Assembly: GCA_021801355.1 (NCBI GenBank)
Contig: JAJYYB010000013.1
Span: forward strand, 1 to 61,916
DNA: 61,916 nt
Direction of reading: 5' to 3'
From: Microcaldota archaeon
GTDB taxonomy: Archaea > Micrarchaeota > Micrarchaeia > Micrarchaeales > Micrarchaeaceae
Shown: positions 49,963 through 54,430 of the stretch, piece after piece
How positions within the stretch are numbered: the first letter of the stretch is position 1
How the letters are laid out: the number at the start of each line of letters is the position of its first letter
The notes under the pieces: model-generated
What the model was told of the DNA's origin: nothing
Database searches by the model: none
Seen by the model: the letters and a program-made list of their open reading frames with translations, nothing else
Program-made: the position numbers and the translations under genes

Positions 49963-50037
49963 GCTCCCTTCGTCTAGTCCGGCCAAGGACGCGGGGCTTT
50001 CAACCCTGCAACTCGGGTTCAAATCCCGAAGGGAGCA
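49963..50037 (+). tRNA. tRNA-Glu (TTC)
   Basis: Acceptor GCTCCCT/AGGGAGC, anticodon arm CGGGG-CTTTCAA-CCCTG giving TTC, T arm CTCGGGTTCAAATCCCGAG-like. The gene is complete: the integrated element restores its 3' half. It is the integration site of the mobile element that begins at 50038. Confidence 0.93.
49976..50037 (+). repeat. Left attachment site (attL), 3' part of tRNA-Glu
   Basis: 62-bp direct repeat with 54354-54415. Differences at 50004 (C here, T at 54382) and 50007 (T here, C at 54385). Both are third-codon silent in the integrase frame and keep a Watson-Crick or G-U pair in the tRNA anticodon stem. Confidence 0.93.
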
Positions 50038-50925
50038 CATGCAATTTGCGACAGTAAAGCCGGGTTCAAATCTCTAGCCAATGCAAAGAAATTAAGCGAC
50101 ACACGGTTCGGTTCCATCACGGAGACCGAACCCGAAAAACTTAAGAAGTACATAAAAGAGGTGCTTCCAAATCTAACCTTCCATGAGATTAAGGGCGTGC
50201 TATCCTTAATCTACCAAATCAAGAAAAGACGATACAGAAGCAATGCGCCTCCCAAGTACGGAAGCCTGAACAAGGGCTTCTCGGAACAGGAGGTGCAGGC
50301 CTTCTTCAAGGTAATAGAAAACGACAAGTTTCGCCTATTGTTTGGGTATCAAGCGCAGCTTGGACTCAGGATAGGCGAAGCTGTCAAGGTAAACGTGAAA
50401 GACATAAAGTTCGAGACACGTGAGCTAATCGTTAAAACTGAAAAGGCTCACGTGATAGACACGATGCTTATACCAGTCCCATTATTTCGGCAGACTTTAG
50501 AGTTCATAAACCGTAACGAGAAAGCTATAATGCAAGCTGGCGGGTTCGTGTTCTTCGCAGAAAAGGGGCATAGCCTTAGGGGCGAGCCCTACCTAGAGAA
50601 GAACTACGTCCGCAAGGTATTCCGGGAGTACGTCCAAGCGGCCAAGCTGGACGAGGTCTACGACCAGAGCGATGAGACCTACGGCAGAACACCTAGAAGG
50701 CTGCATAGGCTAACCACGCATAGCTTAAGGCACTATGCGATAACCAGCTTCGCTAGGCAGAGCAATGGGAATGTAGTGCTAGCCAGCCGCTTCGCAAGGC
50801 ATAGCGATCCCAGCACCACCATGACCTACATAAATACAAGGAAAGACGAGCTTTACAAGGCAGTAGATGAAGCATTCTCTCTAGAGAGGGCATCCAGCCT
50901 CAAAGCCAAGCTTTCCATGCCATAA
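50038..50925 (+). CDS. SSV-type tyrosine integrase, C-terminal (catalytic) part
   Basis: The frame stays open from inside the tRNA without any ATG, GTG or TTG until GTG 50161, so in the integrated state it lacks its own natural start. Fused in frame to the 28 residues encoded at 54332-54415 it gives about 323 residues. Catalytic residues of tyrosine recombinases, numbered in that joined protein, are Arg139 in LGLRIGEA, His256 and Arg259 in HSLRHYAI, the His of ARHSDPST, and Tyr292 in MTYINTRK. It catalyses site-specific integration and excision at tRNA-Glu. Whether any truncated protein is made from GTG 50161 is unknown. Confidence 0.88.
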   Translation, partial: HAICDSKAGFKSLANAKKLSDTRFGSITETEPEKLKKYIKEVLPNLTFHEIKGVLSLIYQIKKRRYRSNAPPKYGSLNKGFSEQEVQAFFKVIENDKFRLLFGYQAQLGLRIGEAVKVNVKDIKFETRELIVKTEKAHVIDTMLIPVPLFRQTLEFINRNEKAIMQAGGFVFFAEKGHSLRGEPYLEKNYVRKVFREYVQAAKLDEVYDQSDETYGRTPRRLHRLTTHSLRHYAITSFARQSNGNVVLASRFARHSDPSTTMTYINTRKDELYKAVDEAFSLERASSLKAKLSMP

Positions 50926-50934
50926 ATCTGACAT

Positions 50935-51082
50935 TTTCTCTACATGGCTAGGATTCTCTACATGCCCAGCCAAATTCATGTAGAGAAAGGTTACGAGGGA
51001 TTTACTCGTAAATGCCCTATTTTCTCTCTACACTACTGCACATCAATATTATAGCCGTCCATGTAGAGAGTCATGTAGAGAC
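50935..51082. repeat. Iteron cluster: five copies of CATGTAGAGA plus one degenerate copy
   Basis: Copies read as TCTCTACATG at 50937-50946 and 50955-50964, and as CATGTAGAGA at 50977-50986, 51060-51069 and 51072-51081. A degenerate copy TTTCTCTCTACA lies at about 51021-51032. Two copies point one way and three the other. Likely binding sites for a replication or partition protein, next to ParA. Confidence 0.85.
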
Positions 51083-51101
51083 TTACGCCTACGCAGCCTG
51101 C

Positions 51102-51334
51102 GCCCGCCCCTAAAGACACCTTCGGTGTCGCTCAGGCGGGCTACGGCTGCCACGGCGGCTGCTTTGCAGGACATGGCGGCTAGGAACTACGTCTTTTGTC
51201 TATAAAAGACGCCGATTTTGGGCGGGGGCAAAATCGGCCTTTAAGGTAGTTCCTACTGGTGGCAGTTTGCAGTCCGTTGGGACGCTAGCCCTCATAAGCC
51301 GTAGGCGCATGAGTTGGCGTAGCTAAAGGGCTAG
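51102..51334 (+). ncRNA. Highly structured G/C-rich region: candidate structured RNA or replication origin
   Basis: Six or more perfect stems are visible. GCCCGCC 51102-51108 pairs with GGCGGGC 51135-51141, enclosing GACAC/GTGTC with a UUCG-type loop. CTGCCAC 51147-51153 pairs with GTGGCAG 51259-51265. Inside that, TAGGAACTAC 51181-51190 pairs with GTAGTTCCTA 51246-51255 and encloses two hairpins: GTCTTTT/AAAAGAC (51191-51210) and GCCGATTTTG/CAAAATCGGC (51211-51238), a three-way junction. GTCC/GGAC at 51272-51283 and CTAGCC/GGCTAG at 51285-51334 follow, the last enclosing CTCAT/ATGAG. No ORF fits. Strand is not determined by the pairing; plus is assumed because ParA follows. Confidence 0.6.
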
Positions 51335-51349
51335 GGTTACCTAATGATA

Positions 51350-51416
51350 CGGTTCGAGTTAGTTGGGGACAAAATCTAACTAAATTAATAAATATTGTGC
51401 TACCTAAGTTAGTATT
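51350..51416 (+). promoter_or_regulatory. ParA promoter with GTTAG repeats
   Basis: TATA-like AATAAATATT near 51386-51395 predicts a near-leaderless ParA mRNA. AGTTAG motifs at about 51358 and 51407 and an inverted CTAACT at about 51377 surround it and may be an autoregulatory operator. Confidence 0.4.
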
Positions 51417-52397
51417 ATGAAACAGCTAGTTTTCTTCAATAATAAAGGTGGCGTAGGGAAGACCACTTTCATACAACATCTAGGTTACGCTTTAGAGAGA
51501 CAAGGCAAGAAGATATTGTTCATTGATGCTGATCCGCAATGCAACTTGACTGCGTATATTTGTACGGACGAACAGATAGATAAGTTTTGGTTAAGCAAGG
51601 ATAGTATCTACAACGTTGTTCAACCAATAATAGTCGGTACTGGCGACATTGATACAAAAATAGTACCATATCAAGTTCCCGGAAGAAATATCTGGTTACT
51701 TCCGGGCGATGTCGCACTCGGTGAATTTGAACAAACACTAGCTGATAGCTGGATAAATGCGCTTGCAGGCAGAGAGATTGGTTTTAGAGCGACTTCTGCT
51801 ATTTTTCGTTATATAAACAATTGGGCTGTAGCGAATGGAATAGATTATGTATTACTAGATATAGGGCCTAATCTAGGGGCACTAAATCGCGCGATATTGT
51901 TAGGGTGTGATTATTTCATAATACCACTAGTCCCAGATTTATTCTCTCTTAGGGGTCTAACAAATATGGGCCGAACTTTTGTAAGATGGATGAATGAGTG
52001 GGGCGGCGCCACTAGTCGGTTTGAAAGCAAAACATTTCCGGTTCAGAATGGCAGACCTGCCTTTGCCGGCTATGTAACTGCACATTTTAATATATATAGA
52101 AAAAACCCAACAAAGGCGTGGGAGAGATGGAATGCAGAGATACCATCGCGAATAAAGAGAGATGTAGTAGACCAATTATTGAAGATTGACAAGAATTTGG
52201 TTGTTCCACTAAATGGTGGTTATAGTATAGGTGACATGAAGAACTATCATAGTTTAGTTCCACTTTCGCAAGATAAATTGAAACCTATTTTTGAGTTAAC
52301 TTCAAAAGACGGTGTAGTTGGGGGGCATGTGGCATATGTTGAAGAGTGTAATGCGACGTATACTGAAATTGCAAAGAAAGTATGCAAGAAGTTATAG
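51417..52397 (+). CDS. ParA-like partition ATPase
   Basis: 326 residues. Deviant Walker A KGGVGKTTF at residues 10-18, Walker A' FIDADPQCNLTAYI, Walker B YVLLDIGPNLGALN, matching the ParA/MinD superfamily (AAA_31). C-terminal half (from about 200) is variable. No ParB gene follows. The stop codon TAG is the first three bases of the IS630 insertion; without the insertion the frame would end one codon later (Ile then TGA). Likely segregates the element's circle. Confidence 0.88.
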   Translation: MKQLVFFNNKGGVGKTTFIQHLGYALERQGKKILFIDADPQCNLTAYICTDEQIDKFWLSKDSIYNVVQPIIVGTGDIDTKIVPYQVPGRNIWLLPGDVALGEFEQTLADSWINALAGREIGFRATSAIFRYINNWAVANGIDYVLLDIGPNLGALNRAILLGCDYFIIPLVPDLFSLRGLTNMGRTFVRWMNEWGGATSRFESKTFPVQNGRPAFAGYVTAHFNIYRKNPTKAWERWNAEIPSRIKRDVVDQLLKIDKNLVVPLNGGYSIGDMKNYHSLVPLSQDKLKPIFELTSKDGVVGGHVAYVEECNATYTEIAKKVCKKL

Positions 52398-53481
52398 ATA
52401 ATTGCGCTGTTTAGTTTACATTTATATACTTTGCTATTGATAATAAAGTATGCATAAATTGACCGGGTACCAGATACCTCATCAGGTTCTTGAACACTAC
52501 AGGTTCCGAGCGGTAGAACTGAGAAAAGAAGGGAAGAAAGTAAATGACATTGCACATTATTTTGGTTTGAACAGAGTTACTGTTTCATATTGGCTATCAA
52601 AATATAAAAACGAAGGAAAAGAAGCACTGAAGAGCAAGAAGGCATCGGGGCCTAAACTGAAACTTTCTCCGAAAGAAACAATGAAGATACTCAATAATCT
52701 TAAATTGCCTGCAACTGATTTTGGTTTCGAAACGCCACTTTGGACATGCAAGAGAGTCGAATATCTGATCAAAAAACTAACCAGGAAGAATCTGGATAAT
52801 TCAAACGTATGGAGACTATTAAGGAGATTGGGGTTAACCAATCAGAAAGGAGAACGTAGAGCATTGGAACAGAATCCGAGGGAAACAAAAAAGTGGCTGA
52901 GAGAAGAATGGCCGATGATCCTTGCTCATGCAAAACGTTGGCAGGCCATGATATATTTCCAAGACGAGGCAGGAGTTTCAGTGAATGCAGTTATGGGTAA
53001 AACATGGGCGCCTAAAGGTAAAACGCCGATAGTGAAACTGTCTGGTAATAGAGGAGGCATCTGTGTGTCCTCTGCAATAAGTCCTGCAGGCAGGTTAGTG
53101 TTTAGAGTAGAAAAGAAAACAGTCAATTCTACAACTTTTATCGACTTTTTAGATAAAATCAGAAAGCATCACAAAAATCGTAAAGTTATCGTTATAGTAG
53201 ACCGGGCACCATCACATACTTCAGGCAAAGTCAAAAAGTATGTAAAAGAAAACAAGAGGGCATTTGCACTTTATTATCTGCCACCATATTCACCAGAATT
53301 GAATCCAGATGAAAAAGTCTGGGGGTATCTGAAGGAGAATAAACTGAAGTCTCATCAGGCAAAGACGAAGGTGGAATTGAAGGATATTACTGTGTCTGCT
53401 ATGAAAAGCATACAGAGGCAACCAACACTTCTGACATCCTTTTTCTATAATATTATGTAAAATAAGCTACGCAATTATCTA
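52395..53481 (+). mobile_element. IS630-family insertion sequence (about 1,087 bp)
   Basis: Terminal inverted repeats TAGATAATTGCG (52395-52406) and CGCAATTATCTA (53470-53481), flanked by TA on both sides (52393-52394 and 53482-53483), the target-site signature of the IS630-Tc1-mariner group. Encodes one intact transposase. It split the ParA and MUG113 genes, which would otherwise be within about 10 nt of each other. Confidence 0.85.
52450..53460 (+). CDS. IS630-family DDE transposase
   Basis: 336 residues, apparently intact. N-terminal helix-turn-helix (VNDIAHYFGLNRVTVSYWLS), then DDE catalytic residues: Asp in YFQDEAGV, Asp in VIVDRAPSH, Glu in LNPDEKVWG. ATG 52450, with TATA-like TTTATATACTTT near 52420-52431 inside the left end. 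Confidence 0.92.
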   Translation: MHKLTGYQIPHQVLEHYRFRAVELRKEGKKVNDIAHYFGLNRVTVSYWLSKYKNEGKEALKSKKASGPKLKLSPKETMKILNNLKLPATDFGFETPLWTCKRVEYLIKKLTRKNLDNSNVWRLLRRLGLTNQKGERRALEQNPRETKKWLREEWPMILAHAKRWQAMIYFQDEAGVSVNAVMGKTWAPKGKTPIVKLSGNRGGICVSSAISPAGRLVFRVEKKTVNSTTFIDFLDKIRKHHKNRKVIVIVDRAPSHTSGKVKKYVKENKRAFALYYLPPYSPELNPDEKVWGYLKENKLKSHQAKTKVELKDITVSAMKSIQRQPTLLTSFFYNIM

Positions 53482-53489
53482 TAATATGA

Positions 53490-54209
53490 GTGTTGTATGT
53501 GGATAAACAATACATTCTTGAGGAGATACGCAGAACGACCATAGAAAATGATGGAAAACCATTGGGCCATCGTAAATTTGAGAATGAAACAGGTATAAAA
53601 TATCACGATTGGCTTGGAAAATATTGGGCCAGATGGGGCGATGCTCTTAAGGAAGCAGGGTTTACACCCAACAAACTTACTAGTGCATTTACTGAAGATT
53701 TTATTTTAGAAAAACTATGTGGATTAATTCGCGAATTGGGATATTTTCCATCCGCTGCGGATCGAAGATTGAAGAGGAATAAAGATAAGACATTTCCAGC
53801 TGATGGAGTTTTTGAGCGAATTGGTAATCAACGTACTCTCAAATTGAAGGTAGTTTCGTATTGCAAGCAGAGAGGTATTGAAGATGTAATCAAGTTATTT
53901 CAGATACCTGAAAGTGGTGAAGAGAAAAAGAAAATCAATACAACTATTGAAATTGTTGGAACTGTATACTTGATAAAATCTGGCAAATTCTACAAAATAG
54001 GCCGTACCAATTCACTGGGGCGGAGAGAATATGAAATCTCATTACAATTACCAGAAAAGGAGAAATTGATACATTCGATTAAAACGGATGACCCTGTCGG
54101 GATAGAAAAATACTGGCACGATAGATTTGATAAATTCCGTGCTAACGGCGAATGGTTCTCACTCACGCTAGAAGAAGTCAATGCGTTTAAGCGTAGGAAA
54201 TTCATGTGA
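53490..54209 (+). CDS. HNH-associated-repeat protein with MUG113/T5orf172 (GIY-YIG-like) C-terminal domain
   Basis: 239 residues from GTG 53490 (GTG 53499, MDKQYILEEIRR, is an equal candidate). Two N-terminal repeats of the homing-endonuclease-associated type: GKPLGHRKFENETGIKYHDW with WGDALKEAGFTPN, and a second from about 70-130. The C-terminal 90 residues, GTVYLIKSGKFYKIGRTNSL then WHDRFDKFRANGEWFSLT, are the MUG113/T5orf172 form of the GIY-YIG fold. Such proteins are thought to nick or bind DNA. It may act in replication, copy control or defence of the element; all are inference. Confidence 0.75.
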   Translation: MLYVDKQYILEEIRRTTIENDGKPLGHRKFENETGIKYHDWLGKYWARWGDALKEAGFTPNKLTSAFTEDFILEKLCGLIRELGYFPSAADRRLKRNKDKTFPADGVFERIGNQRTLKLKVVSYCKQRGIEDVIKLFQIPESGEEKKKINTTIEIVGTVYLIKSGKFYKIGRTNSLGRREYEISLQLPEKEKLIHSIKTDDPVGIEKYWHDRFDKFRANGEWFSLTLEEVNAFKRRKFM

Positions 54210-54331: not shown

Positions 54332-54430
54332 ATGAAGCTAGAAAACGACGCTAAGTCCGGCCAAGGACGCGGGGCTTTCAATCCCGCAACTCGGGTTCAA
54401 ATCCCGAAGGGAGCAAAAACTCATTTTTAA
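54332..54430 (+). CDS. SSV-type integrase, N-terminal part (reads through attR)
   Basis: ATG 54332 opens MKLENDAKSGQGRGAFNPAT and continues through the 62-bp tRNA-derived repeat in exactly the frame used by the C-terminal part at the left end. In the integrated state it ends at TAA 54428-54430 after 32 residues. In the excised circle it would run into 50038 and onward. This is the diagnostic arrangement of a partitioning integrase. Confidence 0.85.
   Translation: MKLENDAKSGQGRGAFNPATRVQIPKGAKTHF
54354..54415 (+). repeat. Right attachment site (attR)
   Basis: 62-bp copy of the 3' part of tRNA-Glu, 60/62 identical to 49976-50037. It lacks the 5' half of a tRNA and is not a functional tRNA gene. 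Confidence 0.93.

Follow-up and report, generated by a model that had tools for sequence, protein, structure and literature searches.

The window analysed here is a stretch of 61,916 nt (positions 1 to 61,916 of contig JAJYYB010000013.1) from a Microcaldota archaeon of the Micrarchaeales, whose genome assembly spans 1.07 Mb in 21 contigs. A tRNA-Glu gene in it is the integration site of a 4.4-kb element. Within this element, directly behind the integrase gene, lies a G/C-rich block of nested stems that a preliminary description had placed at 51102-51334. Small tRNA-integrating elements of one order of Micrarchaeota share a non-coding module whose conserved core is this block, and the changes among its relatives indicate that the block is under selection for its fold. 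We favour, with moderate confidence, the view that the module is a structured non-coding RNA serving the element itself (maintenance, transfer or regulation) rather than its cargo.

The structured core and its covariation

The conserved unit exceeds the block as first reported: the structure spans 51066 to about 51341, and the repeat array ahead of it starts at 50937. The stems noted earlier are present in the sequence, and the block is indeed non-coding, as no open reading frame (ORF) of at least 80 aa overlaps 51066-51341. A coding block was rejected on that ground and because single-base indels separate the relatives (by eye). A tRNA, a group I intron and other known RNAs were also rejected, since Rfam release 15 gave no match at E≤5 for 50930-51416. 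RNA folding of 51082-51354 gave -122.3 kcal/mol compared to -102.8 +/- 5.6 kcal/mol for 200 dinucleotide shuffles (z -3.5), none of which was as stable; the comparison with shuffled sequence proposed in the preliminary description thus came out in favour of a fold. The modelled core 51066-51341 gave a z of -3.7 and the opposite strand an even lower one (-5.35). Fold stability alone therefore cannot give the strand, because the opposite strand folds well too. The parts of the core, and the A/T-rich motif ahead of it, are as follows.

51041-51053, plus strand: A/T-rich CATCAATATTATA, TATA-box-like, conserved in class-I copies (by eye); a possible promoter
51066-51341 (276 bases), plus strand: structured core, covariance-supported; full-length match to model R1, 157.7 bits, E 7e-51
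51066-51086, plus strand: P1 hairpin, with fewer pairs than in most relatives (covariation alignment)
51087-51156, plus strand: P2-P3 long hairpin (helices 2-5 of the covariation test)
51159-51169, plus strand: P4 hairpin CTGC-TTT-GCAG (helix 6 of the covariation test)
51181-51255, plus strand: three-way junction TAGGAACTAC/GTAGTTCCTA with hairpins 51191-51210 and 51211-51238 (6- and 27-copy alignments)
51256-51265, plus strand: P6 hairpin CTG-GTGG-CAG (helix 8 of the covariation test)
51272-51283, plus strand: P7 hairpin GTCC-GTTG-GGAC (helix 9; also predicted unaided by RNAalifold)
51284-51323, plus strand: P8 hairpin GCTAGCCCTCAT...ATGAGTTGGCGTAGC (helices 10-12; missed by unaided RNAalifold)
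51326-51341, plus strand: conserved 3′ tail AAGGGCTAGGGTTACC, after which the cargo starts (alignments)

The P2-P3 hairpin is laid out as GCC-TAC-GCAGCC-TGC-GCCCGCC-(GACACC hairpin)-GGCGGGC-TAC-GGCTGC-CAC-GGC, with symmetrical 3x3 internal loops. For P8, a first version pairing TAGCCC with GGGCTA was replaced by the longer GCTA-GCC-CACGT pairing.

Compensatory changes in relatives, a check named beforehand, were found in abundance, including in alignments that had not been fitted to a model. Eleven copies lacking the three-way junction, together with a hand-drawn structure, were used to build the covariance model R1; the window copy was outside this training set. A search of 76 sources gave the 71 matches (E≤1e-12) of alignment A4, of which 70 distinct rows were tested. 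A partial opposite-strand match (L167:6961-7037) was excluded from per-copy counts, which leaves 70 copies at 69 loci. In A4, 94.0% of 3772 cells pair compared to 75.1% in shuffles, both-side changes occur at 61 of the 67 modelled pairs (41.2 in shuffles), and 624 cells are changed on both sides (142 in shuffles); none of 500 shuffles reached the observed values. Sliding the partner by 1-3 columns reduced pairing to 34-41%. In a MAFFT alignment of the 11 copies, not model-fitted, both-side changes were seen at 14/67 pairs and the score was 0.184 compared to 0.099 +/- 0.007, the structure having been drawn on one of the rows. Finally, RNAalifold run unaided on a 27-copy MAFFT alignment predicted P1, the inner part of P2, P3, P5 and P7, with 13 of 43 pairs changed on both sides. 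P7 is the clearest helix: its loop is GUUG or GUGG, and all four pairs of its 4-bp stem are changed on both sides. Comparative data also back helix 4 (GCCCGCC/GGCGGGC) and helix 5 (GACACC/GGTGTC).

Comparative data support the three-way junction more modestly. It is present in 8/27 copies of alignment A5, and among six copies both-side changes occur at 4/27 pairs (2.0 in shuffles; reached in 20/500), with seven both-side-changed cells compared to 2.4 in shuffles (1/500). The outer CTGCCAC/GTGGCAG helix (51147-51153 with 51259-51265), which the preliminary description had drawn around the junction, did not stand. No both-side change was found in the five lettered copies of the 6-copy alignment, in all of which the helix can form if G-U is counted. 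All seven pairs are available in only 3/27 copies (window, L159 and L184), and 18 of the 19 junction-less copies have a C-C mismatch or a gap at the fourth pair, in MAFFT columns that may be off. The helix also competes with P2 (GCAGCC/GGCTGC) and P6 (CTG-GTGG-CAG), both of which covary.

The P5 hairpin loop (51211-51238 in the window) is C-rich in 21 of the 27 copies and G-rich in six (window, L156, L035, L159, L184 and L142). The P5 hairpin of L156 is by eye the exact reverse complement of that of L043. The two orientations look like hairpin inversion, for example by template switching.

The strand was addressed through non-Watson-Crick pairs. Over all modelled pairs of A4, 198 cells are G-U and 87 are A-C, and among 26 nearest-neighbour pairs one-sided changes lead to or from G-U in 74 cases and to or from A-C in 31. 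On balance, this bias would favour the integrase-sense strand and argue against a duplex cruciform. It fits RNA and single-stranded DNA alike. The initial alternative, a candidate structured RNA or single-strand origin, is thus partly supported: it gains a conserved fold and a strand bias and loses its outer helix.

Elements that carry the core, and the repeat array

A DNA search found relatives in 26/85 genomes of the family, and in 53/164 genomes of the order when another copy was the query. R1 searches with Infernal gave matches in 67/164 genomes of the order at E≤0.01, covering two families and 34 of 54 genera. At E≤0.001, 63/301 genomes of the phylum gave a match, and all 63 belong to the same order; both searches used the stricter filters of Infernal, with which weak matches are lost. 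The best-scoring copy, L153, reaches 289 bits. A pattern scan of named genomes returned 19 stretches, 15 of them titled Ca. Micrarchaeota and four Ca. Marsarchaeota; the latter titles may be mislabelled. In the genome of the window itself (G000) the core is matched six times (E≤0.001; C20, C16, C12, C3, C21 and C19), with at least three repeat classes among its core copies.

The setting, which goes beyond the preliminary description, is that of a tRNA-integrated element with an integrase and a repeat array. The window element has an integrase, an intact tRNA at one end and a repeat of the tRNA 3′ part at the other.

49963-50038, plus strand: tRNA-Glu gene (anticodon ttc), intact, left attachment (att) site (ARAGORN)
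50161-50925, plus strand: tyrosine integrase (Pfam PF00589, E 6.4e-13)
54354-54415, plus strand: right att site, the 3′ part of tRNA-Glu (direct-repeat match)

The 62-nt direct repeat (49976-50037 and 54354-54415) is 97% identical. The true start of the integrase is probably upstream of 50161, because the reading frame is open over 315 aa. Among the copies, 43/70 have a tRNA within 4.5 kb upstream, 45/70 a same-strand integrase upstream and 27/70 a right att repeat (blastn E≤0.01, some short); the three features occur together in 22/70, and contig ends explain the lack of one or another in some of the remaining copies. The 22 elements with both ends measure 1.9-9.1 kb (median 4.3 kb). The core lies between the integrase and unrelated cargo genes, and the class-specific array precedes it where assignable.

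Twenty further stretches were fetched, 19 because an integrase lacked a clear core match and one (L205) because an array did. A core match was found in two of them only (L198 and L199). Two stretches break off just behind a repeat array, L197 at 95 and L213 at 199 bases past the integrase; L203 and L204 stop 230 and 70 bases past it. The remaining stretches gave no core match. In seven core-less loci, whose ORF starts were read by eye, no Rep was obvious in place of the core. The core therefore looks like a separate, optional module. That the contigs L197, L203, L204 and L213 all stop 70-230 bases past the integrase gives the appearance of assembly breaking at a multi-copy module.

The array of the window consists of five exact arms of a 10-nt repeat.

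50937-50946, plus strand: repeat arm 1, TCTCTACATG (exact copy)
50955-50964, plus strand: repeat arm 2, TCTCTACATG (exact copy)
50977-50986, minus strand: repeat arm 3, inverted, able to form a hairpin with arm 1 or 2 (exact inverted copy)
50991-51011, plus strand: small hairpin TTACGAG/CTCGTAA between the arms, variable among copies (by eye)
51060-51069, minus strand: repeat arm 4, inverted (exact inverted copy)
51072-51081, minus strand: repeat arm 5, inverted, its ATGTAGA being the P1 loop (exact inverted copy)

Relatives keep the order, the orientation and the distance to the core (within about 20 nt) of the repeats, and differ in repeat sequence. Five repeat classes account for 48/70 copies. 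The most frequent, CTCTACATG, is found in 36/70, followed by ACTAAAGACC in six copies (L054, L056, L169, L171, L176 and L178), CTTGGAAC in four (L063, L064, L146 and L147), CTTTAACC in one (L034) and ACTTCATCTG in one (L059). By eye, the P1 loop is a copy of the repeat in classes I and III. Together with the two spacers, repeats 1 and 3 can fold into a hairpin whose loop contains repeat 2, and class-I spacers pair better with their own partner than with the partners from other class-I arrays (-3.15 compared to -2.20 kcal/mol, p 0.009, 26 arrays, relatedness uncorrected). In 164 genomes, 20/20 exact class-I arrays lie at a core match (lists compared by eye), as do 6/7 class-II arrays, the seventh being that of L205. 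L054 and L056 are composites in which class-I repeats and the promoter-like motif are followed by a complete class-II array and core, and array and core can therefore recombine; L049 resembles them by eye. A promoter before repeat 1 was considered and rejected: TATA-like sequences are seen there by eye in some copies at varying positions and are missing where the integrase ends 12-18 nt upstream.

Proposed role of the module and competing explanations

In the mechanism that we propose, a promoter at the conserved CATCAATATTATA would drive transcription of the core, and the transcript would act as a structured RNA for the element itself, not for the cargo. The repeat in the P1 loop, complementary to upstream repeats 1-2, would give each element its own pairing specificity. 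We lean slightly towards a role in maintaining or transferring the element once it is excised, and place regulation of the element second. Pairing is favoured because a protein reading five repeat sequences would have to be encoded, and among the protein clusters of the 69 loci only the integrase (50 loci) occurs in more than 15, the size of the next largest; repeats that pair with one another would do without such a protein. These points, with an analogy to the sgm-sRNA of Salmonella genomic island 1 described below, weakly favour an RNA that would recognise its own element by pairing and act in maintenance or transfer. A bolder version, which we consider unlikely, is a protein-free RNA identity system in which the P1-loop repeat would pair with the matching sequence exposed by the upstream hairpin and control circle copying or transfer. 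The repeat classes, at least five with one common arrangement, would then be compatibility types that change independently of integrase and cargo.

Several observations weigh against an RNA serving the element. The transcript, the promoter and the terminator of the core remain putative, and no conserved T-run was seen by eye after the 3′ end in the part of the alignment inspected. Pairing and G-U counts in A4 are inflated, as the alignment was fitted to a model that itself scores G-U. The ratio of G-U to A-C is only about 2:1, falls to 134:84 without the first three P8 pairs, and shows no excess among states present in one or two rows (57 G-U and 60 A-C). Without guidance, RNAalifold misses P4, P6, P8 and the junction, and it places the 5′ end of P2 opposite the P8 region. 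The test of spacer pairing in the upstream hairpin gave a modest result, and class-II spacers did not pair better with their own partner (p 0.51, four arrays). Moreover, 22/70 copies fall outside all five repeat classes (two of the 70 are cut at a contig start), related integrases without a detected core exist (for example L195, in a one-contig genome), and the co-orientation of downstream genes in 49/67 copies is also expected from a cargo leader.

The main rival, which we regard as somewhat unlikely, is a single-stranded-DNA site (a conjugative, rolling-circle or single-strand origin) folded on the transferred strand and recognised by proteins of a helper or of the host, the repeats being iterons of different helpers. 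The strand bias fits it as well as RNA, and the fixed order of class-specific repeats resembles iterons. No replication domain was found among 22 different proteins scanned (integrase and part of the cargo). The two orientations of the P5 loop may also point to hairpin events at the DNA level. However, neither a relaxase nor a Rep acting on the block was found, nor a helper carrying the array: viral contigs gave no hit to the promoter-arm pattern or to the class-I array (exact-match patterns), and plasmid and phage records gave no match to the block. The compensated helices and a majority U-G pair in P8 are at least as natural for RNA. A 5′ leader of the cargo mRNA (riboregulator or insulator), made from the conserved promoter and controlling the gene behind, seems to us quite unlikely. 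By a longest-ORF rule the first downstream gene is co-oriented with the core in 49/67 copies, at a median distance of 75 nt, three of the 70 copies having too little sequence, and no terminator was seen. However, the next gene is on the other strand in 18/67 copies, including the best-scoring L153, and L033, L055 and L160 have by eye their own TATA-like sequence before the cargo start. The cargo is also unrelated from copy to copy, hence without a common regulatory logic.

That the module assists the integrase, as attP arm sites, a bridge-RNA-like guide or a resolution site, is very unlikely, although it adjoins the integrase in many copies and the P5 hairpin, with its short asymmetric loop, is superficially like a recombinase core site. 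Among 38 integrases aligned for the class comparison, those of L167 and L169, both at tRNA-Leu, are 93% identical, and one element is of class I, the other of class II; conversely, integrases only 42% identical can share class I. The array is therefore unlikely to be an integrase site. Class I is found with tRNA-Glu, Leu, Val and Ala, so that the repeats, the part of the core loops compared with the target, do not vary with it. The target tRNA tracks the integrase protein instead, with a mean identity of 0.83 for the same tRNA (120 pairs) compared to 0.57 for different known tRNAs (376 pairs). The array of the window lies roughly 900 bp away from the left att site, and the element contains no further repeat copy at up to one mismatch. 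Attachment-site arms were thus rejected, as the repeats neither follow the integrase type nor lie at the att site, and related integrases occur without a detected core. Finally, we give next to no weight to a stretch without function, whether palindrome-rich by chance or hitchhiking. The opposite strand also folds and L046 and L060 look decayed by eye, but the covariation contradicts this explanation: it greatly exceeds that of shuffles and slid controls and is seen in copies of two families and 34/54 genera.

The proposed RNA can be set beside known systems. In ColE1-type plasmids, RNA II and RNA I serve a replicon without Rep, and loops of the structured RNAs pair with complementary loops and set specificity; pairing likewise gives specificity to the copy-number RNAs of plasmids. 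Unlike in ColE1, the complementary repeats of the Micrarchaeota module are on the same strand, and the module is not known to replicate, to involve an RNase H step or to have an antisense transcript. Plasmid iteron origins combine short repeats in a fixed arrangement with a type-specific sequence and an A/T-rich stretch. The array shares these features, whereas no cognate Rep was recognised in the element proteins scanned and a covarying structured core follows the array. The IS110 bridge RNA is reportedly a non-coding structured RNA beside the recombinase gene of a mobile element. The recombinase family is a different one here, and the target tRNA follows the integrase protein, not the repeat class. 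To our knowledge this fold and the class-swapping array have no precedent, while mobile-element RNAs as such are known.

A close arrangement is that of the sgm-sRNA of Salmonella genomic island 1 (SGI1), which is encoded between mpsA and oriT and needed for mobilisation (PMC9299015). Like the proposed RNA, it is an element-encoded small RNA next to a tyrosine-recombinase-family gene (mpsA), serves the element and not the cargo, and neighbours a site with inverted repeats, oriT (PMC9299015). The oriT sequence is outside the core functional RNA and base-pairing with oriT is not required, which limits the analogy (PMC9299015). SGI1 is, moreover, bacterial and its RNA has a demonstrated role in conjugation (PMC9299015), whereas a role in transfer is a proposal for the Micrarchaeota module, and the likeness drawn here is one of arrangement. 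A word search of a review of archaeal tyrosine recombinases found neither DPANN nor Micrarchaeota in the text covered (PMC8371274). No paper on this RNA was found in the open-access literature searched; subscription papers and preprints were mostly outside this coverage.

The core is most likely a new non-coding RNA, absent from Rfam. As a structured RNA candidate it is large and covaries strongly, and it comes from a phylum of small-genome archaea on whose mobile elements the open-access literature searched holds little. It also identifies a shared non-coding core for elements carrying defence and metal genes. If an RNA does copy or move the element without a recognised replication protein, this would reveal how integrative elements of the smallest size are able to persist.

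Neighbouring genes and cargo

Behind the core, the window element carries the following genes.

51417-52397, plus strand: ParA-like ATPase (PF13614, E 3e-29), the cargo of the window copy; other copies have other cargo
52450-53460, plus strand: DDE transposase (PF13358), presumably IS630-like
53490-54209, plus strand: T5orf172/MUG113 protein (PF13455, PF10544), which we take to be of the GIY-YIG type; cargo

Inverted repeats of 30 nt (87% identical) enclose the transposase gene at 52392-53484, between the ParA and T5orf172 genes, and the transposase is apparently a later insertion. Small minus-strand genes, some presumably toxin-antitoxin-like, are often found between integrase and array. Two loci have two successive right att repeats behind one tRNA (oriented coordinates): L034 at 8819 and 10601, and L060 at 8180 and 8974. 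This suggests tandem or successive integrations. None of the eight small whole contigs checked for exact terminal overlap, as expected of free circles, was positive.

Cargo varies between elements and includes defence and metal genes. The former comprise type IIG and type II restriction-modification (RM) systems, GajA/OLD-like ATPases and AbiU-like proteins; the latter are P-type ATPases with metal-type domains, and a pyridine-nucleotide oxidoreductase was also found. Two of these cargo proteins (L158 and L163) lie behind a core in elements without both ends seen. Anti-phage genes (type IIG RM, GajA/OLD-like, type II RM and AbiU/AIPR-like) are present in the elements L159, L150, L064 and L173, the last of these by a BLAST grouping with L159. 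These elements may thus be defence carriers of these archaea.
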